A DNA stretch of 64,000 nucleotides from Deltaproteobacteria bacterium. GTDB lineage: Bacteria; Bdellovibrionota; JACOXK01. The DNA is taken from NCBI GenBank assembly GCA_016186995.1, contig JACPKQ010000027.1:13545-77544 (forward strand), given 5' to 3'. A program made the position numbers and the translations under genes. Positions 36,598 to 62,774 of this stretch are shown piece after piece. The first letter of the stretch is position 1; each line of letters opens with the position of its first letter. The notes below the pieces were generated by a model. The model did no database searches. It saw only the letters and a program-made list of their open reading frames with translations, and was not told the origin of the DNA.

Positions 36598-39009
36598 CTA
36601 GAACAAAATATATTCGAAATAAATATTGCCATTCCAAGACTTATCTTTATCCACCCCTAATTCGCGCTCATATTTGAAATCGGTTGTGAGATAAAAATTA
36701 GAAAAAAGCTCATAGGCAAGAACTCCTCTCAATTCATATGCATAAGTAACACCAAAGTTTCCATGATCATCGCTTCTCTCAAATTGAAGCTTAAGATCAA
36801 CAAGAAGCTTTTCCAACCATCTATCCTTAAAATTTGCACTCATTCTATGTCTCTTCTCTGTAGGGTGATTGATCGTATAATACTCATAACCAAGTTTCAT
36901 CTGTGCCCAAAAAGGAAGCTTATAAAAAAAAGCTCCTGAAAGCTCATCCTTATCAACAGCTGTAGCTGGATGGTAGTCGTTATAAAAATAAGAACCTATG
37001 ACTTCACTATAATCTGAAACACCATAACCAAGAGACCCACCAAAAACATCCAAAGGCCGAATCACAAAAGAGCTTGTCCCTGAAACCGATTCAGGATCTT
37101 CTTGTCGAAGAACACTCAGATTCATATCAAAATTTTCCTGGGTCCATCGGAAGATACCAAAGCCCGTAAACATTTGCTTTACTTCAAGAATAAAGGCCGC
37201 TGAAGAATCCTCATTTTTAAATTCATTCCAATCGAGGCGTCCTCTAAAATAAGTATAGTCCGAAAATGGAACTTGCCCTCCTAAAGAAACAGTATTTTGA
37301 CTATAATGATGCCTCGTTGAATGATCTGAAGGCCTTTCTCTCTTAAAATTAGAATACTGATACCTTCCACTGAAATCTAATTGAGGAGTCCATTTATAAG
37401 TAAAAAGAAGTGATCCTCGTTCTGATGTGTCTACCCGTGTCACAGCACGCGTCGCCGGACTAGCGTCAAAAAGATCTTCCTTAAAAGAATTGTACCTCGT
37501 CTGTAATGTTGGAGCCTTTGCTTTTTCCAGGTTTTCTAAATCGTGAACGGCTTCAAAATTTTTAGGTTGGATCTTTAAACTCTGATGATATAGTTTTTCT
37601 GACTCTGTCCACTCACCATTGTAATAAAGCACTCTGGCATATCCATTAAGTATATCGATATTGTCGGGGGCCATTTTTAAAGCTCTTTTAAAAAGACTCT
37701 TTGCCTCGTCAATATTTCTTTGCCAACCATATACACGTCCCAAAGCAACATAATTTAAAATGTTTGTGTCATCTAATTCAATAGATTTTTTTAAAGCGGT
37801 CGCTGCATCATCAACACGTGCCGAATAAGAATAAAGAACACCTAAACCTGCATGAATTTCAGCTCGTTGTGGTTCTATTTCAGCAGCTTGATTATACCAA
37901 TAAATAGCTTTATCAATCTCCCCCCTTTGAGAATACATAGCTCCCAGTTTCATCATACTATCAATATTTTTAGGAGAGCGCTTTAATACTTCTAGATGTA
38001 TCGAAATACTTTTTCCAAGCTCCCCACTCCATTGGTAGGCTTCAGCTAAACCCATCTGGGCGTCTAGATTTGTGGGCTCTCTCTTCAGAATCTCTTTGTA
38101 AGTTTGAACTGAATTTGGATACTGCTTATCCCAGGCATAAACTCTACCAAGCATTAAAAATGCTTCGTCACTTTTGGGATAGATTTTCACTACCTCATTC
38201 AGGTGTTCTATAGCTTTCTTGTAAAAACCCGCCCAGGCATAAGCGCGTCCCTTCCCCATAAGAGCTTCATAGTGTTTAGGATTTTTTGCTAAAACCTGAT
38301 CATACCCTTGCAAAGCCATTTTATACTGTCCATCCCAGCTGTAGACTTGCGCAAGTAACAGAACAACATCCAAATCTTCCGGATCCATGTTATAAGCTTT
38401 TTTCACATGGATTAAGGCTTTGTCATATTCTCTTTTGGCAATAAGTTTCTGAGCTAGCGCCACTCGTAAATCTTTATCATCTGGTTTTGTCTCAAGCTCT
38501 TTTAAAAGTTTTTCCAAACTCTCACGAACATATATGGATGCCACTTTGACATCCAACATTTTAGCAAGACCTTGTTGTGCCTGATAATTTTCTGAATCAA
38601 TTTTTAGCACACGGTTATAATATTCTTTTGCCTTGTCAAAATCTTCACCCCAGTAATAGGCTTGCGCAATATTTAAAAGAGCTGATATATTTTGAGGCTC
38701 ATATTTTAGAATTTTTTCACACGTCTCAATACTTTTTTTAAACATCTGCTTCCACGCATAAGCATGCGCTAATCCTAAATAGGCATCCGTATGCTTGGGG
38801 TCATCAGCAATAATTTTTTGATATATTTTGATGGCTTCATCATATTGGCCATCCCAGCCTAAAAATTGAGCAAGCTTAAACAAATGCTCTGGGTGACCAG
38901 GACTGCGGGTAAGAGCATCTCTATGATATTTAATTTGCTCTTTAAAACTTTGAGCATGGACAACAAAGGTCACAACGAAAATCAGAAAAAAGAGAAAGAT
39001 TGTCCTCAC
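36598..39009 (-). CDS. TPR / beta-barrel outer membrane protein (PgaA-like polysaccharide exporter)
   Basis: An 803-aa protein with a signal peptide (cleavage near VHAQ, residues 18-21), about 14 TPR-like repeats (about 25-505) and a C-terminal region (about 510-803) of alternating aromatic strands ending in YFEYILF. A terminal Phe is the usual outer-membrane barrel signal. This arrangement matches PgaA and BcsC-type exporters, where periplasmic TPRs guide polysaccharide to a barrel. It is the last gene of the exosortase operon, directly abutting the EpsI fusion gene. The barrel is shorter (about 290 residues) than a classical 16-strand PgaA but could hold 12-16 strands. The polysaccharide is unknown. 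Confidence 0.8.
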   Translation of the reverse strand: MRTIFLFFLIFVVTFVVHAQSFKEQIKYHRDALTRSPGHPEHLFKLAQFLGWDGQYDEAIKIYQKIIADDPKHTDAYLGLAHAYAWKQMFKKSIETCEKILKYEPQNISALLNIAQAYYWGEDFDKAKEYYNRVLKIDSENYQAQQGLAKMLDVKVASIYVRESLEKLLKELETKPDDKDLRVALAQKLIAKREYDKALIHVKKAYNMDPEDLDVVLLLAQVYSWDGQYKMALQGYDQVLAKNPKHYEALMGKGRAYAWAGFYKKAIEHLNEVVKIYPKSDEAFLMLGRVYAWDKQYPNSVQTYKEILKREPTNLDAQMGLAEAYQWSGELGKSISIHLEVLKRSPKNIDSMMKLGAMYSQRGEIDKAIYWYNQAAEIEPQRAEIHAGLGVLYSYSARVDDAATALKKSIELDDTNILNYVALGRVYGWQRNIDEAKSLFKRALKMAPDNIDILNGYARVLYYNGEWTESEKLYHQSLKIQPKNFEAVHDLENLEKAKAPTLQTRYNSFKEDLFDASPATRAVTRVDTSERGSLLFTYKWTPQLDFSGRYQYSNFKRERPSDHSTRHHYSQNTVSLGGQVPFSDYTYFRGRLDWNEFKNEDSSAAFILEVKQMFTGFGIFRWTQENFDMNLSVLRQEDPESVSGTSSFVIRPLDVFGGSLGYGVSDYSEVIGSYFYNDYHPATAVDKDELSGAFFYKLPFWAQMKLGYEYYTINHPTEKRHRMSANFKDRWLEKLLVDLKLQFERSDDHGNFGVTYAYELRGVLAYELFSNFYLTTDFKYERELGVDKDKSWNGNIYFEYILF

Positions 39010-41070
39010 TCATCCACCCCAGAATAAATTATTGATATCATCGTCATTCAGAGCAGAAAGAGCAATGATGAGCCAGGCCGTTCCAGCAACAGAAGGATTA
39101 ATAGAAAAGTTAAAAGGAATATTTTTATTCGCATAAAGAAACCCACCGTTTTCTGTTTGATACGCCAAAATATTTTCGATAATGTTGATAGCTTGAGAGC
39201 GTTGTCCCAGTTTGATGTGAGCAAGTGCAACTCCAATAGTTCCCTCTGGCCATACCACTTCTAAATCATCCCATTTCGTTTTCGGATTTTTTGAAAAATA
39301 AAATTGCCCAACCTCTTCATCTTCAAAAAGGATTTGATCTCGATAGGGTGTGTAAGCAGTTTTGTTTTTCTCTGGATCAAAAACTTTGTAATTGTCGGTT
39401 GCTTTGAGAGCTTGTAATGCCTTTGCTTTGTCACCGAGTGATGCTAAAAGAATTGCCCCCCATGAAGCGGTATCTAAAGCTTGTGCTGTATCTGCACCAT
39501 CCAGTCGCTGCCCCTGGTTAAATTGTTGTAATTTTTCATTCCATGCTTTTGATAAAAGAACATCCTTAATAGTTTGTGCCGCACTCACATATCTTTGACT
39601 CCCCGTAAGTCTTCCTAAATCTCTCAAGAAATAATAAATATCAATGTTATGCTCAACACTCGCCCACATAACTTTTTCCTTGGAAAACTTTTCTACAACC
39701 TGCCCCCGCTCTTTTTTAAGGTAGTACCAACCTTCTCCGCCCGTCACAAAACCCAACCTTGGATCTCCTTTCTGGGTCACTTGAAATTCTAATAGATAGT
39801 CTGCCATTTTCTGAGCCAGGTTTAAATAATCTCTCAACTCCTGATCTTTATTGATAAGATCTGGGTCTTTCAAGAGACGCGTTCTCAAATAATAAGTAAT
39901 GGCATAGCCCATCCATCCATTGGCACCACTTCTGATAATGGCCCCATAACTATCCTTAGATGACGGCCATTCGTTATTGGTATTATAACCAAACCACAGA
40001 TGCCCACTCTGTTCATAAAGCCTCTTAAAGGCATCTATCATGAGCCTGGCCTGATCAAGGTTGTTTGTCATGGTGAACGCAATAATAGCAAGTGCATTAT
40101 CATAGATAAAGGATCTACCAAACATAAACCTAAAATTCTTATCAACATCACCCACAGGTTTCTCACGATTGAGCTCAAAACTGAGAATCAAATTCCGCCG
40201 ATCCATTTGAGGTTCAGGAATGATTGCGTTGGGAACGACCTGTCTCTTCATCCAGTTAAGAGCTCTTGCCTGCGCAATTTTTAATTTTTGCCGGGTTGTG
40301 AGTTTCTGATCCATGGTAGGGAGAACAACAGGCTTATAGGTAATAAACTCAGGCTCTTTTTCACGTTTTTCTTCTTCAAACTTCAAACTTAAAATCTGTC
40401 TAATAAAATCAATGCTTTTATTTTCTGCTTCTTCAATGCCAGCCTCTTCATCAACATTAAAAGCCACTCGAAACAGAACAGCGCCATCACTCATTTTTCT
40501 TAATGAATTTGGCCACATGTACCAGTACAGGAGAAGTTGTAAGGTCTTGCTCTTAGGGCTTCGTGCCAGCATGTATCTCACTCGAAACTCTTCCCCTTTA
40601 AGCTTAATAGACTTAATCTTTCGCGTAATAATTTCCCAACCATCATTAGCATAACAAATTTCAGGGGTGTGAAACGTGACTTCATTTTCTCCATACACTG
40701 AGATAAACCAAATTTTATTCTTTTTTTGATCTGTATAACGCCTATAATGGACTAATTCCTTAAACGTAGGATTATAATCCACACCTTTCCATTCACCTAA
40801 CTGACGAGGTATCTTTTTTAATTGATCAACAGAAAAAAAATTCCAGTTTGAAACTATTTTTCCTTCATGAGAAGTAAAATGATAATAACCAACATCCGTG
40901 ATAAACTTGTGTTCTCTGGATAAATCTAATTGCAACGCAGTTTTAGGAATATCTAATTTATAGGTTTGAAATTTCCTGTTTAAATTCCATGTTACAAAAA
41001 GATTAAAAGACGTAACAACAATAATACTAGCCCACACGAGCCGTCCAGAAAGTTTTGTTTGCGTTATCAT
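39010..41070 (-). CDS. EpsI (exosortase-associated) domain fused to a putative glycosidase-like toroid
   Basis: A 686-aa protein. A membrane anchor (about 12-29) is followed by an EpsI/DUF3485-like domain (about 60-235), with motifs LGEWKGVDY, VYGENEVTFHTPEICYA and LLLYWYMWPNS that are typical of exosortase partners. After a linker (about 236-285) comes a second domain (about 290-686) with repeated helical motifs such as SGANGWMGYAITYYLRTR, WASVEHNIDIYYFLRDLG and VVWPEGTIGVALAHIKLG, suggestive of an (alpha/alpha)6 barrel like many glycosidases and lyases. EpsI is normally a separate protein; the fusion suggests polysaccharide processing linked to anchoring. Enzyme activity is inference. It overlaps the exosortase stop by 4 bases. 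Confidence 0.75.
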   Translation of the reverse strand: MITQTKLSGRLVWASIIVVTSFNLFVTWNLNRKFQTYKLDIPKTALQLDLSREHKFITDVGYYHFTSHEGKIVSNWNFFSVDQLKKIPRQLGEWKGVDYNPTFKELVHYRRYTDQKKNKIWFISVYGENEVTFHTPEICYANDGWEIITRKIKSIKLKGEEFRVRYMLARSPKSKTLQLLLYWYMWPNSLRKMSDGAVLFRVAFNVDEEAGIEEAENKSIDFIRQILSLKFEEEKREKEPEFITYKPVVLPTMDQKLTTRQKLKIAQARALNWMKRQVVPNAIIPEPQMDRRNLILSFELNREKPVGDVDKNFRFMFGRSFIYDNALAIIAFTMTNNLDQARLMIDAFKRLYEQSGHLWFGYNTNNEWPSSKDSYGAIIRSGANGWMGYAITYYLRTRLLKDPDLINKDQELRDYLNLAQKMADYLLEFQVTQKGDPRLGFVTGGEGWYYLKKERGQVVEKFSKEKVMWASVEHNIDIYYFLRDLGRLTGSQRYVSAAQTIKDVLLSKAWNEKLQQFNQGQRLDGADTAQALDTASWGAILLASLGDKAKALQALKATDNYKVFDPEKNKTAYTPYRDQILFEDEEVGQFYFSKNPKTKWDDLEVVWPEGTIGVALAHIKLGQRSQAINIIENILAYQTENGGFLYANKNIPFNFSINPSVAGTAWLIIALSALNDDDINNLFWGG

Positions 41071-41933
41071 AACTCGGCACGCCCTACTTTACCCCGAACT
41101 AAAATGAGCCACACAATCAACATACTCAAGAGTGCTGAAAAATAAAAGAAATACCCAGAAAAGATATGCCAGTATTTCATGGCACTTTCTACTCCGTAGT
41201 AATTGCTTATTAAAAGGACTAAAGTAATTCTTAAAAAATTACTCACCATGGCAATAGGCAAAGTGAGAAACATGAGTGTCACCTCAACCCATTTTGGCAT
41301 TCTCATTAAATAAATGAGCAAAATCATGAGTGTTAAAAGTATAATGAGAGAATTAAAACCAACACACGCTGGTGAAATCTGAAACCAGGATCCTCTAATA
41401 GCTATACGAGAACCAAGCTCTGCCATCTCATAACCCAAGGCAGAAAGTAAGAGGGTAATAAGTTTTGCCAACCACAACTGCAGTATGTTGGTGATCTCGG
41501 GTAAATACGGAAGGGGTATCGTTAAAGCCGGAAAAAAAACAGGAAAATTGAATTGTTGTGAAGTCTCCCGTCCATATAAAAAATGAAGCCACGCCCTAAA
41601 AAGAAATAAAAGCCCTAAAATAAGGCAAAAATTCAGCTTAAAATACGTGCCACACACAATCAGAGGAATCGCAAGAAATAACCACGGAAGTGATGCGGGC
41701 AATTTTTTAAGGGAGAATTGAGGATATTCTATATCACCTCTTTTGACAGATTTACCCAGCTTAAGACAAAACAAAAAAACTGAAAGCACTATGACAAGAG
41801 GAGAATGCGCATAAGTGGGGTTTGCTTTCCAGGACAAAACCAACCACGAGACTGCGTCAAAAAAAACAAACCCCGCCACAAAACATACAAGAAGATTTAA
41901 GAGAACATGAGTGAGAAAAACCCCCATCTTCAT
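41067..41933 (-). CDS. Exosortase (Xrt family)
   Basis: Integral membrane transpeptidase-like enzyme that processes C-terminal sorting signals on exported proteins. About eight membrane helices are visible. The three invariant residues fit: Cys190 in ISPACVGFNSL, Arg235 in SNFLRITLVLL and His256 in MKYWHIFSGY. The YAHSPLV segment near residue 42 is also typical. Length 288 aa. The preceding gene encodes a protein with a matching type of C-terminal anchor and the following one carries an EpsI domain, so the functional set is complete. The subtype is unclear. Confidence 0.92.
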   Translation of the reverse strand: MKMGVFLTHVLLNLLVCFVAGFVFFDAVSWLVLSWKANPTYAHSPLVIVLSVFLFCLKLGKSVKRGDIEYPQFSLKKLPASLPWLFLAIPLIVCGTYFKLNFCLILGLLFLFRAWLHFLYGRETSQQFNFPVFFPALTIPLPYLPEITNILQLWLAKLITLLLSALGYEMAELGSRIAIRGSWFQISPACVGFNSLIILLTLMILLIYLMRMPKWVEVTLMFLTLPIAMVSNFLRITLVLLISNYYGVESAMKYWHIFSGYFFYFSALLSMLIVWLILVRGKVGRAEL

Positions 41934-41943
41934 CTTTTTTCGG

Positions 41944-42384
41944 CTATACCTTGCGACGTCTTAAAAAGGCAACAACAAGAATAACCGCAAGGAGCAATAA
42001 GAAGCCCCCAATAAACATTGTTGGTGTTGAAATTTCAAAAACTTCAGGTGGCTCATCATCATCATGATGATGACCAAAACCCAGACCTTTACCATGTTGA
42101 CCTTCACCAGTTTCATCGTGACCTTTACCTGGACTATCCTCGTGACCTGGTCCATGAACGCCCTCTTCCTTATGGTGGCCCTCACCAAGATCATCGTGCG
42201 TTATGGGAACATCCGGACTGTCCTCAGTTTCGTCTGCAAAAACCATCAGAGAACTGACAATGTCATAGGAAACACTGATGGAAGCATCATCATCCGCATT
42301 AAAATCAAACTGAAAACCGGCCAATCCAAAAGAAATAATCAGAAAAGCAAATAAAGATACGAACACCTTCACAAGTTTCTTCAT
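41944..42384 (-). CDS. His/Asp/Gly-rich exported protein with sortase-like C-terminal anchor
   Basis: Small exported protein of 146 aa, a likely exosortase substrate. A signal peptide (about 1-24), an acidic middle, a repetitive His/Gly/Asp/Glu-rich stretch (about 60-110) and a C-terminal tripartite tail: EPPEVFEISTPT, a hydrophobic helix (about 123-140) and RRRKV. This resembles PEP-CTERM signals but lacks the VPEP core, so the recognition motif may differ. The ATG at 42384 has AGGAGGG five bases upstream; a longer frame from 42426 is less likely. It lies 10 bp before the exosortase. The His/Asp runs could bind metal; this is inference. Confidence 0.8.
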   Translation of the reverse strand: MKKLVKVFVSLFAFLIISFGLAGFQFDFNADDDASISVSYDIVSSLMVFADETEDSPDVPITHDDLGEGHHKEEGVHGPGHEDSPGKGHDETGEGQHGKGLGFGHHHDDDEPPEVFEISTPTMFIGGFLLLLAVILVVAFLRRRKV

Positions 42385-42422
42385 AGATACCCTCCTGTCT
42401 GAAAAATAGTATAACAAGTGAC

Positions 42423-43253
42423 TCAATCTTTGACTAGTTCTGTTTTAAGAATAAAAGCAACGGGGAAAATCCACTGCAAAAGAGGATCGATCGTAAGAAT
42501 CACTTGTGGGTGAGCCTCAATTTTATAGTTAATAATATCAAAGGTATCGATATCCCACTTTTCACCACTTGAGCCATCCCAATCACCTTTCATACCAAGA
42601 GCCCGATCATTGAGAAGACTACTGCTTCCATTGCCAGGTATAGCATGCCCGCCAATAAGACTGATCTTTGAAGCAAAGTACTTTTCTTTACCTTCGGTAA
42701 GCTTCATATAGTAAAGCTCACCCGGTTTGAGGCGAGCCACCCCAGCTTTAATAATGATACTACTATTTTTAGCTGCCTCTTGATCCTCATATACAACAGC
42801 CATCGCCCAGCCAGCATTTTCATAGGTTTCCGAAAACAAGCCTTCAACCCCATACTTTCCCTGGCCGCTAAAAAGCGCTGTAACGTCTGAAAAACAGGCA
42901 TAAATATCTTGCGCAAGTTTTATTTTTTTTGACTCGATAAAGTGTTTCTTTTTTTGTGGATCAACAAAAATAATTTTATTGATATTTTTATAATCTTTTC
43001 CGATGACTCCTGACCAAAACAACCACACAGAAAGAATTTTATATTTTTTCATATCTGGTACTTCTACAGTGGCTTCTTTTAATAACTGCCCACTCTTAAG
43101 CATGCTCGTTCCAAAAACATGAAATCCAAGTTTTTGATTGTGAGCCTCAAAAACCGTCTCAAAACCTCGCATCTCTCGTGGAGGAATTTCTTTTGTTTCT
43201 GCGAAAACACTATGGAAACATAAAACCAGACTGACGATAATAGCTTTCTTCAT
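42423..43253 (-). CDS. Exported protein resembling the N-terminal domain of surface repeat proteins
   Basis: A 276-aa exported protein with a signal peptide (cleavage near FAE, residue 18-19). The middle has LSVWLFWSGVIG, then FSDVTALFSGQGKYGVEGLF and NAGWAMAVVYEDQEAAKNSSIIIKAG (reported here only by its GWAMAVVYEDQ core). This combination of a WSG strand, a turn and an AxVVYED strand is familiar from bacterial surface proteins (DUF3344-like or adhesin modules), from memory only. It lies between a TPR gene (4-base overlap) and the anchor-bearing gene, so it is probably an envelope component of the same system. Confidence 0.7.
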   Translation of the reverse strand: MKKAIIVSLVLCFHSVFAETKEIPPREMRGFETVFEAHNQKLGFHVFGTSMLKSGQLLKEATVEVPDMKKYKILSVWLFWSGVIGKDYKNINKIIFVDPQKKKHFIESKKIKLAQDIYACFSDVTALFSGQGKYGVEGLFSETYENAGWAMAVVYEDQEAAKNSSIIIKAGVARLKPGELYYMKLTEGKEKYFASKISLIGGHAIPGNGSSSLLNDRALGMKGDWDGSSGEKWDIDTFDIINYKIEAHPQVILTIDPLLQWIFPVAFILKTELVKD

Positions 43254-44266
43254 TTCATTTTCTCTTTCACATCACTGTATTCTTCGATAACTTCTTGATT
43301 CTGAGGATACTCAAGAGCCACTTTTCTTAAAATTTGAAAACTTTGATTCATCAACCCTTGCCATTTATAAACTCTGGCTAAACCAAGTTGCGCTTCCAGG
43401 TGATAGGGTGCTTTTTCAATAACTTCTTGAAATAATTTCATCGACTTTTTAAAGTTTTTCACCCACCCGTAAACCATGGCCAAATGTGCTTTTATATCCA
43501 TGTTATCAGGATACTTCTCAAGAAGCTCCTCATAGATTCCGGTTGCTTTGTCATATTGTTTATTTTCATCATAGGCTTTGGCCAGTAAAAAATAGGGCAT
43601 CTCATCTTTAGAGTGAATATCGATAAACTCTCTAAGATTATTGATAGCTTCCCGATACTCCTTTCTTAAAAGATGCACTTCTCCCAATCTTAAAAGTGCT
43701 TCAAGATATTCTTCTTTCCATTTATAACCCACCCCGTACTTCAGAAGAAATTTTGTAACACCACTCGGATGCATCGTGATTTTTTGATAATGATTAACGA
43801 CTTCACCATAGTTTTTTTTCACTAAATTGACTCGAGCTAGTTGAAAGTGTGCTGGCAAATCATCACTTTTGATTTCAAGAATGGATTCAAAGCATTTTTT
43901 AGCCAGATCATACTCTTTTTCCCAAATATAAACCCTACCCAAATGATAGAGGATATTTGTATTCGTAGGCTGCATTCTTAAAATTTCCTGGTAAACAGCA
44001 ATGGCTTCATCATATTTTTCTATCCATCTTAAAACATGGGCTAATCCGAGCTTGACCTCAACATAGCCAGGTTTTTCAATAAGAATGCGGCGATAGATTT
44101 CTTCAACACGGCGAAACCTTTTCTCTTTTTTATACTTCTCAGCCTGCTCTAAGAGATCAACAAAAACCCCTTCAACGCGGCGGAATTCGCGGTAGGAATG
44201 CCAGGAAAACAAAATAAGAGAAATGTTTATTACAAATATAGCAAGTAGAATAAGAATCTTTCTCAT
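43250..44266 (-). CDS. Membrane-anchored TPR protein
   Basis: A 338-aa protein. An N-terminal hydrophobic segment (about 4-22) probably anchors it in the inner membrane, with a periplasmic array of about eight TPR-like repeats (about 42-330), for example VKLGLAHVLRWIEKYDEAIA and DIKAHLAMVYGWVKNFKKSM. Aromatic residues before the second helix (WIEKYDEA, WEKEYDLA) recur in the neighbouring TPR proteins of the operon, so these may be related by duplication. It probably scaffolds the polysaccharide machinery. Start overlaps nothing upstream (4-bp gap). Confidence 0.8.
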   Translation of the reverse strand: MRKILILLAIFVINISLILFSWHSYREFRRVEGVFVDLLEQAEKYKKEKRFRRVEEIYRRILIEKPGYVEVKLGLAHVLRWIEKYDEAIAVYQEILRMQPTNTNILYHLGRVYIWEKEYDLAKKCFESILEIKSDDLPAHFQLARVNLVKKNYGEVVNHYQKITMHPSGVTKFLLKYGVGYKWKEEYLEALLRLGEVHLLRKEYREAINNLREFIDIHSKDEMPYFLLAKAYDENKQYDKATGIYEELLEKYPDNMDIKAHLAMVYGWVKNFKKSMKLFQEVIEKAPYHLEAQLGLARVYKWQGLMNQSFQILRKVALEYPQNQEVIEEYSDVKEKMK

Positions 44267-44270
44267 AAAA

Positions 44271-45041
44271 TTACTTTTTTAGTAATTCTAAAGCTTGTTT
44301 ATTTTTAGGATCCAGTTTCAAAATCTCTTGTACAACTTCTTGAGATTTTAAAGATTTACCATACCACTTATAGTACCGCGCTAATGACAACATAACATCA
44401 ATATTATTGGGATGTTTTTTTAAAACCTCTTGAGCTGTAGCAATGCTTCTGTGATACTCTCCCTTTTGAGCGTAGACATTTCCCAGAAGAATCCAGGCTT
44501 CAACATAGTCAGGTGCTTCTTTAATAACTTCATTAAGATACTTTTCAGCCTTATCGGGCTGCTTATCCCAAAAATAAATTTTACCCACTAAAACTTTCAC
44601 ATCAACATTTGTTGGATGGTAACTTAAGACTTCTTCATAATCTTTGATAGCTTCTTTGAATTTTTCTTCAGAAACCTTTTTCTCAGCTGACTCCAGAAGT
44701 GACATGATTTTTTCGTCTTTCTGGAGATGGAGAGGTAATTGTTCATATTGTTTTTGCCATTTAAGAACATTTTCAATAGATACCTTGGCATCAGTATTAT
44801 CTGGATCAAGAGCTAAAATTCTACGGTAATCATTCAGTGCTGCTGTAAATCTTTTTTCTTTAGCAGCTTTTCGAGCAGACTCAAACAAGGTGTTGACCTC
44901 GCCTAATTTTTGAAGTCGTATTGCTTCTTGCTCTCTTATAGCCTCAAACCGTGGATCTCTTTTAATAGCAAAATAAGTCATTAAGGTTCCCAGTAAAAAA
45001 ACCAACAAAACTGCAATCATTAGTAGGTGTTTTCTACTCAT
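44271..45041 (-). CDS. Membrane-anchored TPR protein, second copy
   Basis: A 256-aa protein with an N-terminal membrane segment (about 5-25), a coiled linker and about five TPR-like repeats (for example YEEVLSYHPTNVDVKVLVGK). The repeats share the WDKQPDKAEKYL-type second helix with the genes at 43250 and 36598. The start is ATG 45041, with GAGGGG seven bases upstream, overlapping the glycosyltransferase 3' end by 8 bases. A TTG at 45056 is an unlikely alternative. Role probably as for its neighbour. Confidence 0.8.
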   Translation of the reverse strand: MSRKHLLMIAVLLVFLLGTLMTYFAIKRDPRFEAIREQEAIRLQKLGEVNTLFESARKAAKEKRFTAALNDYRRILALDPDNTDAKVSIENVLKWQKQYEQLPLHLQKDEKIMSLLESAEKKVSEEKFKEAIKDYEEVLSYHPTNVDVKVLVGKIYFWDKQPDKAEKYLNEVIKEAPDYVEAWILLGNVYAQKGEYHRSIATAQEVLKKHPNNIDVMLSLARYYKWYGKSLKSQEVVQEILKLDPKNKQALELLKK

Positions 45042-46554
45042 TTTCTTGCCCCTCAAAGCCGCGACGTTTTATGTCACCCCAGTGTTTTTTGCCTCTGATA
45101 AGTGACCACAATCCACTCACTGAAAACAAGAGGGTGATCTGTCTAAACCAAACATTACTCGTGATACCTGCAATCAACAACTTCATTATATCCCACACAC
45201 TCGTGTATTGAAATATTGATACCTGAGATGAAGGATTTCGATATTCTTGTTCCGATGATACTCCTAAGAGAACAGCCATAATCGAGAGGAAAGAGCCATA
45301 CAAAACAGAAACAGTCATAAAGAGAATTAAATATTCAATCTGAAGTCGGCCTGTCAGCCATGCGATGGGTATAAAAAGATACCCAATTAACTCAAGAAAA
45401 GGACCAAAGGCTTCAAAAATCACTTGTAGAGGCATTGCAAGAAATCCCATCTGCTTATGAGTAGGATTTAAAAACATTTCTCTATGCATATAAAGCACCT
45501 CAAGAAGCCCTCGGTACCATCTATTACGTTGTTTTGCTAAGTCGCTATAATGCTCAGGGACCTCTGTCCAGGCAATGGGTACTGGAGAATATTTAATTTT
45601 CATATTTAAATCATTCTCATAAATGTATCGAATGAGGCGCACAATCACCTCCATATCCTCACACACTGTGGTGCGTTTTCCACAGTATTCAAGAGCCACT
45701 TTTGATTGAGTATGATGACTTAAATACCCCCCAATCTTTAATAAGAGATCTTTTCTAAAAATTGAAAAAACACCGGATAAGACAAGAAGAGAGTTTAAAC
45801 TTGAAAGTGCGGTTCTCCCCATTGTAAAAGTTCTTAAATATTCTACCAACTGATTTATCACGATCCACTTCCTGGACACCTCTGACTTAATAAGCTTTCC
45901 ATCTTTAATTTTAAAACCATTAGAAACCCCTACCTGCCCTCCAACTGCGGCAACTTCTTCTCTATTTTCCAAAAGCGGTTGCATGGCATATAAAAGGGCA
46001 TTGGGTTCCATAATAGAATCTGAATCCATCGTGCAAACATAAGAACACGTAGCTGCATTGATTCCAGCGTTCAAAGCATCTGATTTGCCTCCGTTCTCTT
46101 TATCAATGAGAACAAGATCTATAATTCTTGAATCTTGAATGGGCGCAGCGTAAACATCTGTTATTTTCCCTGTTTTGAGCACGTCTTCATATTTTATTTC
46201 TCGCCCCTCAAAATGGAATGCCTTAATCAATTTTTCTAAGGTGTTGTCTGTCGAACCATCGTTGACAACGATAATTTCAAATTTTGGAAAATGCATTTTT
46301 AAGAGAGACTCAACACACCTCACAATGATTTTTCCTTCATTGTAGGCTGGAACAACGAGCGAAACTGGAGGAAGATCAGGAATATCATAAATAATATCTG
46401 GATCAAGAACGATGAGCTTTCTTAAGTGCAACTTAATGGACACAAAAGCCACGATAAGAAGAAAAAAATTAAAAGAGTTGTAGACAAAAAAATACGTAAT
46501 GATCAAGATTTGCAAAAACTGAACGACAATAGGTATGATGGCCTCAATGTTCAT
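45034..46554 (-). CDS. Processive family 2 glycosyltransferase (PgaC/BcsA-like)
   Basis: Membrane GT2 enzyme of 506 aa. Two N-terminal helices precede the catalytic domain with VVPAYNEGKIIV, Asp99 (NDGSTDN), the DxD-like MDSDS (Asp177, Asp179), an acceptor-site Asp300 in CEDMEV and the QRNRW motif (342-346), the processive-polymerase signature. Three or four C-terminal helices follow (about 370-490). This is the plan of PgaC, hyaluronan and cellulose synthases. There is no PilZ domain. Together with a PgaA-like barrel in the operon it supports a secreted homopolymer, perhaps of an amino sugar; the product is not determined by sequence. Confidence 0.88.
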   Translation of the reverse strand: MNIEAIIPIVVQFLQILIITYFFVYNSFNFFLLIVAFVSIKLHLRKLIVLDPDIIYDIPDLPPVSLVVPAYNEGKIIVRCVESLLKMHFPKFEIIVVNDGSTDNTLEKLIKAFHFEGREIKYEDVLKTGKITDVYAAPIQDSRIIDLVLIDKENGGKSDALNAGINAATCSYVCTMDSDSIMEPNALLYAMQPLLENREEVAAVGGQVGVSNGFKIKDGKLIKSEVSRKWIVINQLVEYLRTFTMGRTALSSLNSLLVLSGVFSIFRKDLLLKIGGYLSHHTQSKVALEYCGKRTTVCEDMEVIVRLIRYIYENDLNMKIKYSPVPIAWTEVPEHYSDLAKQRNRWYRGLLEVLYMHREMFLNPTHKQMGFLAMPLQVIFEAFGPFLELIGYLFIPIAWLTGRLQIEYLILFMTVSVLYGSFLSIMAVLLGVSSEQEYRNPSSQVSIFQYTSVWDIMKLLIAGITSNVWFRQITLLFSVSGLWSLIRGKKHWGDIKRRGFEGQENE

Positions 46555-46556
46555 GA

Positions 46557-49500
46557 TTAACTGGCAACCTTGGTTTTTTTCATCTTCAAAATTTCTGAGG
46601 CCTTCTTTTTCACTTCTGTCATAGGCTCTCTCACCATGAGTTCCTCAATGGCTTCGGCAACCTCTTTCAGGTCTTCAACTTCTTTCAAACTTTCCAATGC
46701 TTCTAATCGAACATCACTGTTAGGATCTTTTAAGGCTTTTAAAAGAATATCTTTATACTTGGCTGGGTTAACAAGTCCAAAAAGCTTCACAGCGCCTGTA
46801 CGCCTGGAAACATCTTTATCGACAGAAATAATATTTTCTAAATCCTCAATAACACCTTTTGTTTCAAGCTCACTCTCAAGTTTCAATTTTGCTTCAGATG
46901 TTAAATCCTTATAACTTCGTGCGACATGGGTGAAAGCATCACTGCTTCCAATTCTAAAAAGTGAAATTAAGGCCTGAGTTTGAACACTTTGTTTTCGATC
47001 TTCACTGAGTTGCTTTAAAACTCTAATGACTTTATCATCGCACGAAAGCTTCGTATTAATAAAATTTATGAGCACTTCAGCAACCGTAGCTCGAACTGTC
47101 TCAACCGGGTCAAAACTTAAACGAATGAGTGCATCTAAAACATCTCTTTCAATAAGCTCGGCTAAAGCTTGAACGGTACTGATACGTACCTCTTCATTCG
47201 GATCATTCATGGCCGATAAAAAAGTTTCTACTCCTTTGAAACCTCCCTTTTTACCCAATTCAATGGTAGCGGCTGCTTTAAGAGCACTATCCGAGCCTGG
47301 TTTTAAGAATTGGCTGAGAAGTTGTGACGTTTTTGTATCTTCTACTTTTCCAAGTGTCATAATAAGACCTAAAAGGACGTTTTTGTCTTCGGTGCCCATA
47401 ATTAAATTCGTGATGTCACTTGCATCTTCTTTATTGATTTCTGCTAACGCATCACTCAAAGCTTCTCGTGTTTTTCTATCATTTATATCAAAACAAGAAA
47501 CCAAAGCTTCATTAGCAGCTTTTAAACCTAAGCCTCCAAGTTTTTGAATAGCACCCATTCGCACCTTATTGGAAGTATCGCCTAAAGCCTCTATCAGAGT
47601 TTTACAGGTATCTTCTGGATTTGCGAGGTGAGTCAAAACCTCAATAGCTCTCAAGCGAACCTCTGGAGAAGGATCCCTCAAAACACTTCGAGCCACTGAT
47701 TTCCAGGCTGCGCTATCCCCAATCAACTCTAACGCACTCAAAGCTCGACTGCGCTCTTCAAGGGATAAAGATCCTCGAAGAGTCCTTTCATACTGGACTG
47801 CAAAATCCTGGTCTGTGATACCTCTTTCTTTACGCAGATACAGGCGATAATCGACATCGAGAAAACTAAAAAATTGGCGCATACACTCACTGTCTTCTTT
47901 TTCTAAAATAATAAGAACTTCTTTTTTTATTTTTTCATCCTTGAAATGGTTCATGACATCCGAAAAGAATTTTTTGTTGCCGATCATGGAAATTCCTATG
48001 ACGGCTGAGGCAACCAGGGAGAGATCTCTGTGTTTCAAAAGAAGAGAAAGTCCTGCTAAAGCTTCTTCTGAATGAAGATATCCTAGGGCTATACACGCTT
48101 TTTTCCTCACATGAATATCGGGATCACTCAGAGTCTTTAAAATAGGTTTCACGGCTGAAGTGTTTTTTAATTGCCCTAAAGCAATCACACTTTCAGCCCT
48201 GACCCATTCACTGGCATCTTCGAGATGTTTCAAGAGAGCTTCAAGGGAACTTGAATCCTTGATCTGCGAGAGTGCAGTGGCTGCTGCAACTCTCACCTTT
48301 TCTTCTGCATCTTCTATAAATATGTGCAGAAGTTTCACAACGGCAGGATGAACTGGATGTTTTATTTTTCCAAGTGTCAAACAAGCCCCAACGCGTGAGA
48401 GCATATCTCTTAACTCCATCAAATGATCTACAAGATCTTGTGGTTCTATCTTGATAGTGGCCAAAGACTCTGAAACAATTTCACGAAGCTTATCATCAGC
48501 ATCTTTAAATAATTGAATTAAAGGTTTAATCACAGTTTGATCTGCCATTTTTCGCAAACTTAAAACTGCTTCAATTTGAACCTCTTGCTCTTCATCTTTG
48601 AGCATATCAACTAAAAATATCATAGCCTTCGGGTCTTTTAATTTGCCGAGGGCTTGCGCAACAATTCTTCTTACTTCGCTATCAGAATCAACTCTAGCCT
48701 CCATAATTTCAGGGATTATTTTTCCATCTGCAAACCTTATCAAAACCTTAAAAGCACTCCGGCGAATATAAAAATTAGGATCTTTAAGAGCAGGACGAAG
48801 CTTATCAAGAACACCTTTCAACTGCGCTACATCAATACGAGAGAAAAGCTCTACAGCTTTTTCACGCACAGTTTCTTCATCATCGGAAAGCGCTGTGATC
48901 AGCTCATCTACAATGTGTACCCCTTTTATTTTTGCAAGTGCACTTAATGCCTCTGCCCGAACACCCCATTCATTATCTTTCACTGCTCTTATGAGACTGT
49001 CTTGAGCTTGAGGGTTTCCAACTTGACCCAAGATTTCACATAACAAAGCACGCACCTGAAAATTGTCATGAGAGTGACAATAATTTTTCATTGCCTGGAG
49101 AGCGCCACTTTTGCCAATATTTATTAAAAAGTCTTTACTTATTCGGCGAGTTTCTTGATCTTGAGAAGCGAGAGCCCTGATATTTTCTTGAACAACACCT
49201 AATCTCTCTAAAGCAGTTGCTGCCCGATACCTAATCTCCTTATGAGTATCATCCAATGCTTTTTCCAGAAGAGCCTGAGCTTTCGGACCAATCATTTCAA
49301 GTGCTTCAACAGCATGAATTCTTGTCCAGTGACTGGGGTCATTAAGCACCTGAACAAGAGGAGCAAGTGCCTTTTCATCGGCAATCTTTCCCAAAGCAGC
49401 AGCTGCTGCAAGACGCACATTAGGTATCGAATCATAAAGCATAAGATTGATCAGAGGGTTCACGGCCTCCCTATCTTCTATTTTTCCCAACGCAACAACG

Positions 49501-50249
49501 CAGGCTTCACGAACTAATTCGCTCATGTCAGAGAGCTCTTGAATCAAAGAAGGTATAGCTTCAAGCGACTGAATCTCACCGAGTATGTGAGCAGCGTTAA
49601 TACGCACATTTTCATTTTTTGGATCTTTCAACTTTGGAAGTACTGCTGGTATCACTTTTTTTCCAAAGCCAACTAAAGCATTCACAATAAGAGGTGTTGA
49701 AACAGCATCAACTTGAGAGAGAGAATCTACCAGAAAAGGAATAGCAGCTTCATCATGAATAAGACGAAGTGCATCAGAACAACACCTTTTAACATTGGCT
49801 TCTTCTTCTGGATCCTGAAGATGTTTAATGAGCACTTTAACAGCTTGACTATGACCAATCCACCCAAGTTTTTTCGCTGCATGGGCACGGTGGCTCCACT
49901 CAGAAGATTCTTCCAACTCCTTGATATCAAAACTTATAAGATCTAATTTTTCATAAAGATTTCTTAATTTAACCTTTTGCTCAGGAGAACTTTTTTCAAA
50001 AGCTTCATCCAAAACTGGCTCAATAATGCTTAAGTCATATTTTTTGAGGATATAAGAAACTAACTGATCGTATTCAGATTCCGGACGAATACCAATATCT
50101 TCAAAAAACTCTTTACATTCTTGTACTTTTTTTTCTGTTTGTTGACGTAAAAACTTCTTCCACAGCTCACTCATGAGCACAAGGAGAATACTCACGGAGA
50201 TAACCCCCGCAAGAATATAAATTAAAAGTAATATCGTACGTTCTGGCAT
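46557..50249 (-). CDS. Giant HEAT-repeat membrane protein
   Basis: About 1230 aa. One N-terminal membrane helix (about 6-29) is followed by a short linker and some 30 HEAT/PBS-lyase-like repeats of about 31 residues over nearly the whole length (for example VRINAAHILGEIQSLEAIPSL and VRAESVIALGQLKNTSAVKPI). These form a solenoid for protein binding; no enzymatic domain is visible. I chose ATG 50249; the longer frame begins at a TTG at 50315. It is the first gene of the operon and ends 2 bp before the glycosyltransferase. It may be a cytoplasmic or periplasmic scaffold for the synthase, but this is inference. Confidence 0.85.
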   Translation of the reverse strand: MPERTILLLIYILAGVISVSILLVLMSELWKKFLRQQTEKKVQECKEFFEDIGIRPESEYDQLVSYILKKYDLSIIEPVLDEAFEKSSPEQKVKLRNLYEKLDLISFDIKELEESSEWSHRAHAAKKLGWIGHSQAVKVLIKHLQDPEEEANVKRCCSDALRLIHDEAAIPFLVDSLSQVDAVSTPLIVNALVGFGKKVIPAVLPKLKDPKNENVRINAAHILGEIQSLEAIPSLIQELSDMSELVREACVVALGKIEDREAVNPLINLMLYDSIPNVRLAAAAALGKIADEKALAPLVQVLNDPSHWTRIHAVEALEMIGPKAQALLEKALDDTHKEIRYRAATALERLGVVQENIRALASQDQETRRISKDFLINIGKSGALQAMKNYCHSHDNFQVRALLCEILGQVGNPQAQDSLIRAVKDNEWGVRAEALSALAKIKGVHIVDELITALSDDEETVREKAVELFSRIDVAQLKGVLDKLRPALKDPNFYIRRSAFKVLIRFADGKIIPEIMEARVDSDSEVRRIVAQALGKLKDPKAMIFLVDMLKDEEQEVQIEAVLSLRKMADQTVIKPLIQLFKDADDKLREIVSESLATIKIEPQDLVDHLMELRDMLSRVGACLTLGKIKHPVHPAVVKLLHIFIEDAEEKVRVAAATALSQIKDSSSLEALLKHLEDASEWVRAESVIALGQLKNTSAVKPILKTLSDPDIHVRKKACIALGYLHSEEALAGLSLLLKHRDLSLVASAVIGISMIGNKKFFSDVMNHFKDEKIKKEVLIILEKEDSECMRQFFSFLDVDYRLYLRKERGITDQDFAVQYERTLRGSLSLEERSRALSALELIGDSAAWKSVARSVLRDPSPEVRLRAIEVLTHLANPEDTCKTLIEALGDTSNKVRMGAIQKLGGLGLKAANEALVSCFDINDRKTREALSDALAEINKEDASDITNLIMGTEDKNVLLGLIMTLGKVEDTKTSQLLSQFLKPGSDSALKAAATIELGKKGGFKGVETFLSAMNDPNEEVRISTVQALAELIERDVLDALIRLSFDPVETVRATVAEVLINFINTKLSCDDKVIRVLKQLSEDRKQSVQTQALISLFRIGSSDAFTHVARSYKDLTSEAKLKLESELETKGVIEDLENIISVDKDVSRRTGAVKLFGLVNPAKYKDILLKALKDPNSDVRLEALESLKEVEDLKEVAEAIEELMVREPMTEVKKKASEILKMKKTKVAS

Positions 50250-50348
50250 GGTTTCTTTCCAGATAACGTATCGGCATTTTCCCTTGTTATCCTGAGGACT
50301 TGTTGAGGACCCCAAGGACAGTTCTTTGTGATTGGGATTCTACAATTG

Positions 50349-50385
50349 TGGCGGAGAGGGAGGGATTCGAACCCACGGAGCCGTC
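50349..50385 (-). pseudogene. tRNA-Ser 3' fragment
   Basis: The minus strand has a serine-type variable arm (ACGGCTCCGT), a T arm (GGGTTCGAATCCC) and an acceptor end with CCA. The last 28 bases match tRNA-Ser(GCT) at 50583 exactly. The 5' half (acceptor, D arm, anticodon) is absent upstream. Its variable arm differs from that of the intact gene, so it descends from a different serine tRNA. Confidence 0.75.
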
Positions 50386-50458: not shown

Positions 50459-50582
50459 ATAGGCGTAAACTCTTTTCATTCAATGAGAGCGAGCCTGAAA
50501 GGCGAAGATCGAATTAGAAAAGAGGGTATGAGATATTTGTGAGCGGGAAAAAAAGAACTGGGTGCATTGTAAATGAGGAATG

Positions 50583-50675
50583 TGGCGGAGAGGGAGGGAT
50601 TCGAACCCTCGATACACCTTTTGAGTGTATAACGGTTTAGCAAACCGCCGCCTTCGGCCTCTCGGCCACCTCTCC
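50583..50675 (-). tRNA. tRNA-Ser(GCT)
   Basis: A 93-base gene with acceptor GGAGAGG/CCTCTCC, long serine variable arm (TACAC...GTGTA), T loop TTCGAAT, encoded CCA and the anticodon loop TTGCTAA. It reads AGC/AGT codons. Its 5' end is only a few bases after the upstream terminator. Confidence 0.95.
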
Positions 50676-52402: not shown

Positions 52403-54772
52403 TTATTTTTGAAGAACAACTTCAACGCGGAAGACTTTCTTTTGCTTGGGGGTTGGAACGATATTCCCTTTTAACTTCTTACCATTTAAAGTTATGTGGG
52501 GCTTGCCTTTTTCTAAACCATGAGGATTTTTAACATGAATATGGTACACAGAACCTCTAAAAATTCTTTTTACTTTAAACTCTTTCCAGTTTTTGGGAAT
52601 AACAGGATCCATCATAAGCCCTTCATAAGTAGGCTTTATACCTAAAATCCATTGATGGGCTGCCATAAACATCCAAGCAGCTGTTCCTGTATTCCAGGTA
52701 AAAGCCCCTTCTCCCATTTCACGATTATCGTGTCCTAAAACATATTCTGGATAAACATAAGGCTCTGTTTTATAAATATCTAAAGTTTTTTCCGGGTTAA
52801 AAGGTGTTATCTTTTTAAAAAGCTCATAAGCCTTGTTTCCTAAACCAGCCTTAGCATAAGCAACAATCATAAAAGCACAGGCATGAGAAAAAATAGCTGC
52901 GTTTTCTTTTGTACCGGGGGCAAAAGCTGTGATTCGCCCAATTGTAGGATCATATTTTTTATAAGAAGGTGAAAAAAGATAAGGACCAAACTCTGTTTCT
53001 AAATTTTTTTCAACCGCAGTGAGAAGTTTTTTCTGCCTCCATTCATCACAGACGTCCGCTAAAATAGCCCAGCTTTGCGGGTTTAAATAAATTTTTCCTT
53101 CTTTATTTTTATGCGATCCAATTATTTTCCCCTCATCTGTAAAAAGAGAAATATACCAATCTCCATCCCAAGCTTTATCGTTTAAAATTTTTGCACTCTT
53201 CTCTGCTTCCCTTTTAAACCGTTTAGCCCATTTATTTCTTTTAAGATAAAATGAAAGTTCTTCCATCTGCCTTAAGGCACGAACATAAGCCATACCTAAC
53301 CAAATAGATTCCCCTTTTCCTTTAATACCACAACGATCAAAAGCATCATTCCAATCCGCTTTCCAAAACAAAGGTAGTCCATGGGGACCTACAGCCCCCT
53401 TAAAATGCTCCATCGCTTGTACACAGTGTTCCCATACTGTTGCTTCTTTACCTCTCAAATAAGAAATTTTTTCTTTGAGAAAATCAAAATCGCCTGTTTC
53501 TTTAAGATAAGCGGTCACCAGGTAAGGAATCCACACGGCAACATCCCCCTTTCCTAAAATACCTGTGCTTGAACCCATCTCCCAAGGGCCTTCAATTTCA
53601 GAAAATCCTGCTACAGCATGCCCCGTTTCATATTGATTTTGTAAAAGCATTTTTATTTTTTCTTTAGCCTGAGCTGAATCTAAAGCACAGAAGGCTTCTG
53701 TATCTTGTGCTGTGTCTCTAAACCCACGTCCACCTTCACCAGGATTATAAGGTGCAGCCGAACGCCACTGGGTAACTTGAATAAGCTGATACTTCCCCCA
53801 ATAATTATTCATAAGATCAAATTCAGAATCGGGTGTTTCAACATGACACACACCCAAACGTTTTTGCCATATTTGCTTCACTTCTTTTAATTCTTTTTGT
53901 GTCGTTTGAAGATTGTGATATTTTTTAACTAATTTTTGTATTTCTTTTTTATCTTCAGCAAAGCCAAGGCAAAAAGTCATTTCTTTTTCTTCACCTGGTT
54001 TCAGTTCAATATCTAGTTTAAGAACACCCACCAGTTCTTTACCCCTAGTAGGTGTGTTAGATACTTTGTTATTTTTAACTGCTTCTGGGGCACAAAGATA
54101 ACCATAGTTTCCTAAAAACTTTTCACTATCCACTTCAAACCCATCTACTTTTTCTGATGAGGTTAAAAACCCATAAGTCTCATAAGGCCTTGCTGAGGTT
54201 GGGTGTTTAAAAGCAACGAGTGTATTGTTTTCTTGCTCAAAATATCCTTCATTATAAAGAACAAGAATATTTTTAAAATTCTGTTCCATATAAAAATCAC
54301 CCAATAAAAAAGAAACATAAGGAAAAATGCTTAAACTTTTTTTGGTATGAGAATTATTTTTAATTTTAAAACACCACACCTCACAAGGATCATCGTTTGG
54401 AACAAAATAAGTTGTTTCTGTTTCAATATTATTGTTTGAGGCTTTAAGAACAGCATAACCAAAACCATAAGTCATTCGCCAAGAATCTAAATCTTTACAA
54501 AGTGGTTGCCATTGAGGCGTCCAAAAATCTTTTGTTTCATTCTCTCGAATATAAATATAACGTCCTGGACGATCACTTCTTTGATCAATGTAGTTTAAAA
54601 TTCGGTGAAGTTTACAGTCTTTATAATAACTATAGCCTCCTCCTGTGTGGGATAAAATAGCGTGGTAAACATGGTTACTTAAATAATGGTACCAAGGACG
54701 CGGGGTATTGGGTTGAGTGATAACGTACTCTTTCCCATCTTTGTCAAAATATCCAATACTAGCTAACCCCAT
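52403..54772 (-). CDS. GH94 family disaccharide phosphorylase (cellobiose/chitobiose type)
   Basis: Cytoplasmic inverting phosphorylase of 789 aa that splits a beta-linked disaccharide with phosphate. The N-terminal beta-sandwich begins IGYFDKDGKEYVITQPNTP and has AGGYSYY-like HTGGGYSYYKDCKLHRI. The catalytic (alpha/alpha)6 barrel holds GGRGFRDTAQDTEAF, the general-acid Asp in FWKADWNDAFDR, and later GENAAIFSHA-like motif KENAAIFSHACAFMI and EYVLGHD. The N-terminus looks like the cellobiose/chitobiose group of GH94. Substrate is not certain. It precedes no obvious partner; the transketolase pair lies 46 bp upstream, so they may be cotranscribed. Confidence 0.92.
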   Translation of the reverse strand: MGLASIGYFDKDGKEYVITQPNTPRPWYHYLSNHVYHAILSHTGGGYSYYKDCKLHRILNYIDQRSDRPGRYIYIRENETKDFWTPQWQPLCKDLDSWRMTYGFGYAVLKASNNNIETETTYFVPNDDPCEVWCFKIKNNSHTKKSLSIFPYVSFLLGDFYMEQNFKNILVLYNEGYFEQENNTLVAFKHPTSARPYETYGFLTSSEKVDGFEVDSEKFLGNYGYLCAPEAVKNNKVSNTPTRGKELVGVLKLDIELKPGEEKEMTFCLGFAEDKKEIQKLVKKYHNLQTTQKELKEVKQIWQKRLGVCHVETPDSEFDLMNNYWGKYQLIQVTQWRSAAPYNPGEGGRGFRDTAQDTEAFCALDSAQAKEKIKMLLQNQYETGHAVAGFSEIEGPWEMGSSTGILGKGDVAVWIPYLVTAYLKETGDFDFLKEKISYLRGKEATVWEHCVQAMEHFKGAVGPHGLPLFWKADWNDAFDRCGIKGKGESIWLGMAYVRALRQMEELSFYLKRNKWAKRFKREAEKSAKILNDKAWDGDWYISLFTDEGKIIGSHKNKEGKIYLNPQSWAILADVCDEWRQKKLLTAVEKNLETEFGPYLFSPSYKKYDPTIGRITAFAPGTKENAAIFSHACAFMIVAYAKAGLGNKAYELFKKITPFNPEKTLDIYKTEPYVYPEYVLGHDNREMGEGAFTWNTGTAAWMFMAAHQWILGIKPTYEGLMMDPVIPKNWKEFKVKRIFRGSVYHIHVKNPHGLEKGKPHITLNGKKLKGNIVPTPKQKKVFRVEVVLQK

Positions 54773-62594: not shown

Positions 62595-62774
62595 GTTTCC
62601 CTATCCAGTTATTTGGGTTAAAAACTTTGATCTATGTTTATATAAAAGGGAACTGTCCCTTGCTGTGGTGTGCATGCCCTCCTTAAAATGAGGGAAGCCT
62701 AAAGCAGCAAAATGGTACCCACTTGGAAAAAGGTATCAAAGGTTTTTGACAAATAATGCTCAAGATAGGGAATT
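62595..62774 (+). ncRNA. ssrS: 6S RNA
   Basis: Regulatory RNA that mimics an open promoter and binds sigma-70 RNA polymerase. A long closing helix pairs TTTCCCTATC (from 62596) with GATAGGGAA (62764-62772), TTATTTG with CAAATAA and TAAAAACTTTGATC with GTATCAAAGGTTTTTG. A large central bubble follows, then TTGCTG/CAGCAA and an apical CCCTC/GAGGG hairpin. GCATGC, GGGAAGCCTAAAGC and the later CCACTTGG segment match in order the well-known 6S sequence (GCATGC, GAGAAGCCTTAAAAC). About 180 bases, with a terminator directly after. Exact ends are estimates. Confidence 0.8.

Follow-up and report, generated by a model that had tools for sequence, protein, structure and literature searches.

Nine adjacent minus-strand genes of a Deltaproteobacteria bacterium assigned to the phylum Bdellovibrionota (assembly GCA_016186995.1) are best explained, at a probability that we put at about 0.6, as an operon encoding a self-contained machine for surface-polymer production and protein sorting. 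The operon occupies positions 36598 to 50249 of the 64,000-nucleotide stretch of contig JACPKQ010000027.1 (positions 13,545 to 77,544) that was analyzed here and is called the window below, in a genome of 1.68 Mb that is 93% complete. A sequence-only reading of this DNA had described nine minus-strand genes with gaps or overlaps of at most 38 bases, and recomputation of the open reading frames (ORFs) and their junctions bore this out, with the gene order as first given. The same reading had joined a GT2 synthase, a TPR protein with a putative C-terminal barrel (TPR-barrel protein), a dedicated exosortase, and an adjacent exosortase substrate in one operon; this proposal held, and the system is conserved. 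The nine-gene observation is confirmed as real, and the operon is not a one-off. From its 5' end, the operon comprises the following genes.

46557..50249, minus strand: HEAT-repeat protein, 1230 amino acids (aa) from the ATG; the TTG-extended ORF reaches 50315
45034..46554, minus strand: GT2 glycosyltransferase of processive type, candidate polymer synthase, 506 aa
44271..45041, minus strand: TPR protein a, membrane anchored; the TTG-extended ORF reaches 45056
43250..44266, minus strand: TPR protein b, membrane anchored
42423..43253, minus strand: exported protein, predicted all-beta, 276 aa; without a Pfam or NCBIfam model
41944..42384, minus strand: putative exosortase substrate (anchor-bearing protein); the TTG-extended ORF reaches 42426
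41067..41933, minus strand: exosortase, 288 aa (PF09721, 2.3e-37); putative catalytic residues C190, R235, and H256
39010..41070, minus strand: EpsI-toroid fusion; EpsI at about 60-230 and a predicted (alpha/alpha)6 toroid at about 255-686
36598..39009, minus strand: TPR protein with a C-terminal strand-rich domain, putative outer-membrane exporter, 803 aa, GTG start

With ATG starts taken at 50249 (HEAT), 45041 (TPR protein a), and 42384 (substrate), the gaps at the successive junctions are +2, -8, +4, -4, +38, +10, -4, and 0 bp (range, -8 to +38). The HEAT, GT2, TPR, exosortase, and EpsI domains named earlier agree with the Pfam and NCBIfam matches (HEAT_2, 1.5e-135; GT2, 9.3e-28; DUF3485/EpsI, 7.7e-12; Exosortase_EpsH, 2.3e-37; and TPR). 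The operon is isolated, the nearest upstream protein gene lying 506 bp away and the downstream gene 238 bp away.

Recurrence of the gene order in two phyla

A search for the same gene order in related genomes, which the sequence-only reading had proposed, found that the core order (GT2, TPR-barrel, exported protein, substrate, exosortase, and EpsI-toroid) recurs across two phyla, being shared with relatives of the same class (G002, G004, G005, G006, and G007, some of them cut by contig ends) and with Nitrospinota (G369 and G389, and in part G388 and G386). The fullest order in the class relatives, found in G002 (Deltaproteobacteria bacterium GWA2_38_16; L023/L037/L040) and G007 (L024/L036/L044), runs HEAT, ATP-binding cassette (ABC) transporter (a 720-aa protein and a permease), GH94, CBM30, GT2, TPR-barrel, exported protein, substrate, exosortase, and EpsI-toroid; G004, G005, and G006 hold only portions of it, as far as their contigs extend. 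The sequence-only reading did not include the GH94, CBM30, and sugar ABC transporter genes that extend the operon in these relatives. Neither free TPR gene belongs to the conserved set; both are local, with no separate counterpart in the relatives, and were seen as separate genes only in the window operon.

A shorter form, consisting of HEAT, GT2, exported protein, substrate, exosortase, and EpsI-toroid genes with no barrel gene, was found in a distant family within the host phylum (G084). A scan of the contig collection recovered a Nitrospinaceae operon (L039) with the order HEAT, GT2, CBM30, TPR-barrel, exported protein, three tandem substrates, exosortase, and EpsI-toroid. EpsI-toroid or its end was present in four further Nitrospinota genomes, and the operon of G389 is complete.

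Exosortases are rare in the host phylum (15 of 369 genomes), and a search of these 369 genomes with EpsI-toroid found both of its parts in 6 and the toroid only in 5. All six EpsI-toroid genomes have an exosortase (hypergeometric, 1.5e-9), as do all seven genomes with a full-length exported protein (hypergeometric, 3.7e-11), values that are overstated because they ignore relatedness among the genomes. The co-occurring genes adjoin physically and in the same order. Chance adjacency was considered as an explanation and is ruled out by the conservation across phyla together with the gene fusions.

Genes for putative polymer synthesis and processing

The HEAT protein consists of one N-terminal membrane helix followed by about 1200 residues of HEAT repeats. 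The N-terminal hydrophobic segment was present in every HEAT protein examined and is followed by a basic stretch in the window copy, which suggests a cytoplasmic HEAT scaffold at the inner membrane; from this predicted topology, the repeats are probably cytoplasmic. Full-length collinear relatives lie next to GT2 and/or toroid genes in Polyangiaceae-type genomes, and HEAT-GT2-toroid clusters without an exosortase were found in several genomes, Myxococcota included. Such a cluster is seen in G121, while G120 has GT2-toroid without an exosortase, the HEAT position falling at a contig end, and in G122 (L033, 7901-10729) the HEAT gene is followed by a single 942-aa ORF that comprises both GT2 and toroid, with no exosortase nearby. 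Further clusters without an exosortase are those of G418 (toroid, TPR protein, GT2, HEAT), of G620 (HEAT-toroid), and of one Polyangiaceae record. The last contains, in order, a GT2, a kinase-like protein, a receiver, a 1209-aa HEAT protein that matches residues 72-1210 of the window protein, and a toroid. Because the HEAT protein travels with the GT2 and the toroid where the exosortase is absent, its earlier assignment to the system stands. Receiver-domain genes adjoin the HEAT gene in Nitrospinota and Myxococcota.

The GT2 is 33-46% identical to the operon GT2s elsewhere, and the motifs NDGS, D[SA]D, ED, and Q(R)xRW are intact in 11 of 11 aligned relatives; as aligned, this set is typical of processive synthases.

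The EpsI-toroid fusion occurs in 10 genomes at 36-44% identity. Its EpsI part scores 45.8 bits against PF11984 (DUF3485; cut-off, 26.1) and falls just below the cut-off of TIGR02914 (36.9 versus 42.8). A sequence search of the fusion against the PDB gave no match. The toroid was modeled by AlphaFold2 with a predicted local distance difference test score mostly above 90, and by this model it has an (alpha/alpha)6 carbohydrate-active fold: its Foldseek matches, at E values of 1e-9 to 1e-7 and about 10% identity, are (alpha/alpha)6 carbohydrate enzymes (GH15, GH94, GH116, GH63, GH76, epimerases, and MmpH, the last with a target template modeling [TM] score of 0.72), among them dextran dextrinase and cellobiose and chitobiose phosphorylases. 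E460, E473, H474, D527, D533, and E609 are common to 10 toroids. The domain is probably periplasmic. Since the toroid is fused to EpsI in one set of genomes and to the GT2 in another, EpsI, GT2, and toroid likely work together. In a tree, the exosortase-linked toroids group together and the exosortase-less toroids of G120, G121, and G122 fall with that of G084; because of the latter grouping, the tree does not single out one origin for the EpsI-toroid fusion.

The sole hints at the nature of the polymer are the neighboring GH94 and CBM30 genes. In the window, a GH94 glycoside phosphorylase gene (52403..54772, minus strand) lies outside the operon, one unrelated gene away; its product is 56-57% identical to the operon copies of the class relatives, and its nearest solved structures are cellobiose phosphorylases. 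The CBM30 protein of the relatives, which is not present in the window, has a domain like a cellulase carbohydrate-binding module. A beta-linked, glucan-type polymer whose released disaccharides are recycled is our guess from these genes, made with low confidence and the weakest of our inferences.

Putative outer-membrane exporter

The C-terminal domain of the 803-aa TPR protein, about 300 residues long, is conserved in eight genomes and shows an excess of amphipathic strands over shuffled sequences in six of the eight, those of L044 and L041 not being clearly above. A profile of the domain matched no barrel or other family in Pfam, NCBIfam, or the PDB. By its strand periodicity, the domain is a likely outer-membrane beta-barrel.

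Exosortase, substrate, and sorting signal

With 129 bits against PF09721 (cut-off, 25.7) and eight hydrophobic windows corresponding to eight predicted membrane helices, the window enzyme is, by profile, a member of the exosortase (EpsH) family. In NCBIfam it scores 105 against XrtV (cut-off, 313), 104 against XrtA (208), and 82 against 8TM_EpsH (105.6). All operon exosortases that were scanned exceed the general signature model TIGR04178, and each stays below the cut-offs of the named subclasses (XrtA, V, W, B, T, and others) and of 8TM_EpsH. In the alignment, the window enzyme keeps Cys190, Arg235, and His256, whereas the Cys is replaced by Ser, with Arg and His retained, in five exosortases, namely those of G084 and four Nitrospinota copies (L043, 9150-9986; L039, 9151-9978; L069, 11732-12685; L070, 304-1128; and L071, 4199-5080). 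This is a notable departure, as the original description of the family reports Cys, Arg, and His to be absolutely conserved (PMC1569441). The substrates of the Ser-containing enzymes have V-x-E-[LF] in place of A-P-E-[LM]. In a sister genome of the host (G001), no EpsI, GT2, or substrate gene lies next to the exosortase, which keeps only Arg of the three residues.

The window substrate is composed of a signal peptide, a His/Gly/Asp/Glu-rich middle, and a C terminus with E-I-S-T-P-T-M, a helix, and RRRK; its sole library match is a subthreshold one to GGIII-CTERM, and against the PEP-CTERM model TIGR02595 it stays below the cut-off (10 bits versus 16; E value, 5.2). The operon substrates are alike only in signal peptide, low-complexity middle, and tail, and the pattern E-[LMIF]-[PSN]-x3-M, followed by a helix and a basic tail, is found in 12 of 12 of them, which represent about four independent lineages. 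Examples are VFEISTPTM (window), APEMNGLWM (G002), APELSANFM (G004), APELPGDVM (G007), VDELSTAAM (G084), VSELPIQYM (G369), and VAELPVQYM (G388). The pattern is absent from all five substrates beside other exosortases of the host phylum and, on these sequence comparisons, is an unlisted sorting signal. The description of a single adjacent substrate is true in the window, but relatives carry one to three, with three in tandem in one Nitrospinota operon.

The exported protein was modeled by AlphaFold2 as a beta-sandwich (predicted TM score, 0.85). It belongs to no Pfam or NCBIfam family and had no match in a PDB sequence search, and fold matches to double-jelly-roll and PNGase F-like proteins were weak (TM score, about 0.2-0.3) and were not used. 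Since all eight full-length copies in the 369 phylum genomes lie directly in exosortase clusters, we assign it to a family linked to exosortases and not to polymer synthesis. This assignment is backed by a second locus of the host genome (G000; contig C24:15606-18492; L001/L029), which contains an exported-family protein, an exosortase, a free EpsI, and a PEP-CTERM protein and, without GT2, HEAT, or toroid, constitutes a minimal sorting unit. The C24 exosortase has Cys-Arg-Lys, not Cys-Arg-His. Its neighbor is a true, divergent PEP-CTERM protein that passes TIGR02595 at 23.9 bits and is the genome's one PEP-CTERM protein above the cut-off, substrates elsewhere in the genome having been sought with the PEP-CTERM model only. 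From the PEP-CTERM scores of the adjacent proteins, the two exosortases of the host genome appear to serve their own neighbors.

Weak matches to the exported domain also occur inside frames of >1000 aa in L083 (G311) and L084 (G106), and no exosortase was detected in those two genomes. Beside other exosortases of the host phylum (L053, L055, L056, and L057), one small PEP-like substrate gene lies adjacent or within two genes, and one-to-one pairs of exosortase and substrate seem common in this phylum.

Relation to known systems

By family, the operon is of the exosortase kind and, judged by model scores, is not Pga, Bcs, or any named exosortase subclass. Exopolysaccharide (EPS) loci with the PEP-CTERM/exosortase system (EpsH, XrtA) similarly combine an EpsH-family enzyme, EpsI, a C-terminal signal, TPRs, and glycosyltransferases, but they usually have many scattered substrates and are large, with chain-length and sugar-transferase genes (Haft 2006, PMC1569441). 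The operon differs from them in having a single GT2, from one to three neighboring substrates with a non-PEP signal, an EpsI fused to the toroid, a HEAT protein, and an exosortase that scores below the subclass cut-offs. In the Cyanoexosortase B/hormogonium polysaccharide locus, an exosortase also lies beside polysaccharide genes, and its substrates have been proposed to exit with the polymer and to hold it to the surface; that locus has a Wzx/Wzy-type pathway and many substrates (PMC12188702), in contrast to the single GT2 and TPR-barrel here.

The export route had been called PgaA/PgaC-like, which is an analogy only. The Pga (poly-N-acetylglucosamine) and Bcs (cellulose) systems have, taken together, a GT2 synthase, periplasmic TPRs, a C-terminal barrel, and a periplasmic (alpha/alpha)6 enzyme, which in Bcs is BcsZ; the operon resembles them in its GT2, its TPRs, its putative barrel, and its predicted (alpha/alpha)6 toroid. 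However, the PgaA model gives the TPR-barrel protein 106 bits, through the TPRs only (cut-off, 367), and the PgaC model gives the GT2 118 bits (cut-off, 422); the Bcs models give 30 bits for CelA (cut-off, 699) and 66 for BcsC (cut-off, 858). There is no deacetylase (PgaB) gene in the operon; no PgaD, BcsB, or PilZ was found either, the putative barrel is unrelated by profile, and an exosortase is added. Membership in Pga or Bcs was rejected on these scores and on the barrel profile, which has no match in the PDB, Pfam, or NCBIfam. Like the operon, the XrtG system of Gram-positive bacteria pairs an exosortase-family protein with a GT2 of its own, and for our GT2 its glycosyltransferase model TIGR03111 ranks second in NCBIfam (102 bits; cut-off, 364). 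The operon instead encodes a putative barrel, EpsI, HEAT, and toroid, an anatomy of Gram-negative type.

The operon is a real and apparently undescribed variant of the exosortase/EPS kind. "Undescribed" is bounded by a search of full-text literature that took in few of the subscription papers and found nothing on exosortases in connection with a HEAT repeat, with Bdellovibrio, or with a catalytic cysteine and a glycosyltransferase.

Proposed function and alternative explanations

We propose that the GT2 would make a polysaccharide and extrude the chain through the inner membrane, and that the HEAT protein, tethered to the membrane, would serve the GT2 as a scaffold or regulator on the cytoplasmic side. 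The periplasmic (alpha/alpha)6 enzyme would trim or process the chain, its fusion to EpsI coupling the exosortase to chain processing, and the TPR-barrel would carry the polymer through the outer membrane. The exosortase would cut its dedicated substrate behind the E-[LMI]-x4-M signal, and the substrate would leave the inner membrane with the polymer and then hold it at the surface. Exosortases have been tied to keeping EPS at the cell surface, and the proposed machine would work in the manner of the Zoogloea and Nostoc exosortase/EPS systems (summarized in PMC12188702), pared down to a single synthase and a single substrate.

This reading is built on what was observed of gene order and co-occurrence, of fusions and motifs, and of folds, and several points weigh against it. 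We infer that a polymer is made, by which route it is exported, and that the substrate is cleaved and acts as a tether, and the activity of the toroid is deduced from a modeled fold and conserved acids. The barrel is backed by strand periodicity alone, and the TPR-barrel is missing in G084. The catalytic Cys is missing from the exosortase in five related operons, which may sort by a different chemistry or no longer sort at all, and GH94 and CBM30 could instead signal the uptake of foreign beta-glucans. The last point leads to an explanation in which the locus binds and uses external beta-glucans, with CBM30, barrel, and substrate as surface parts and with GH94 and the ABC transporter using the products, as the ABC transporter, GH94, and CBM30 genes ahead of the GT2 in G002 and G007 would suggest. 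We consider it very unlikely: the gene found most constantly beside the toroid is a GT2 whose synthase motifs are intact, neither G084 nor the Myxococcota clusters have the GH94 and ABC genes, and the window GH94 gene is outside the operon.

It is unlikely, though for other reasons, that no exopolysaccharide is made and that a short glycan on a lipid carrier, built or trimmed by the GT2 and toroid, receives the substrate from the exosortase. Such an anchor would need no more than a single GT2, a single toroid, and a substrate dedicated to it, and the fusion of EpsI to the toroid and the absence of the TPR-barrel from G084 agree with it; yet the Q(R)xRW motif and the closest models, which are PgaC/NodC-like, point to processive synthases, most operons have a TPR-barrel, and HEAT-GT2-toroid occurs without an exosortase or substrate. 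A covalent conjugate, in which the exosortase would join its own substrate to the GT2 polymer or carrier at an acceptor end generated by EpsI-toroid, with Ser acting for Cys in Nitrospinota and G084, is distinctly unlikely in our estimate. Finally, an EPS module (HEAT, GT2, toroid, and barrel) and a generic PEP-CTERM sorting module might be unrelated and merely cotranscribed, and each is indeed seen alone, as HEAT-GT2-toroid without an exosortase and as the C24 group of exported protein, exosortase, EpsI, and substrate without a GT2. The EpsI-toroid fusion, the order kept across two phyla, and a substrate signal that is absent next to the phylum's other exosortases make so loose an association highly improbable.

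Genomic setting

The 506-bp gap upstream of the operon holds a tRNA-Ser(GCT) gene (50583-50675) and a terminator-like hairpin at 50709-50687. No cyclic di-GMP or other riboswitch was found in this leader, where the tRNA gene sits, and promoter-like sites occurred in it at chance frequency. The 3' 31 bp of the tRNA gene (50581-50611) are duplicated with 97% identity at 50347-50377, 234 bp away and 97 bp before the HEAT start; these two copies are the only ones in the genome, and the duplication beside the operon looks like an attachment-site scar. The GC content of the operon, 0.37-0.40, is slightly higher than that of the flanks. A 6S RNA gene lies on the plus strand of the window at 62595-62775.

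Significance

Both covalent linkage to polysaccharide and co-export with polysaccharide have been proposed for exosortase substrates (PMC12188702), and the operon bears on what exosortases attach their substrates to and on how these cross the outer membrane. Most exosortase systems are hard to dissect because of their many genome-scattered substrates and large EPS loci. New here are an unlisted, predicted sorting signal, a group of exosortases with a natural Cys-to-Ser change, and an exosortase-linked protein family without a model. With one synthase, one exosortase, and one substrate in a single operon and with gene fusions between the sorting and polymer parts, the system would be a compact one to dissect.

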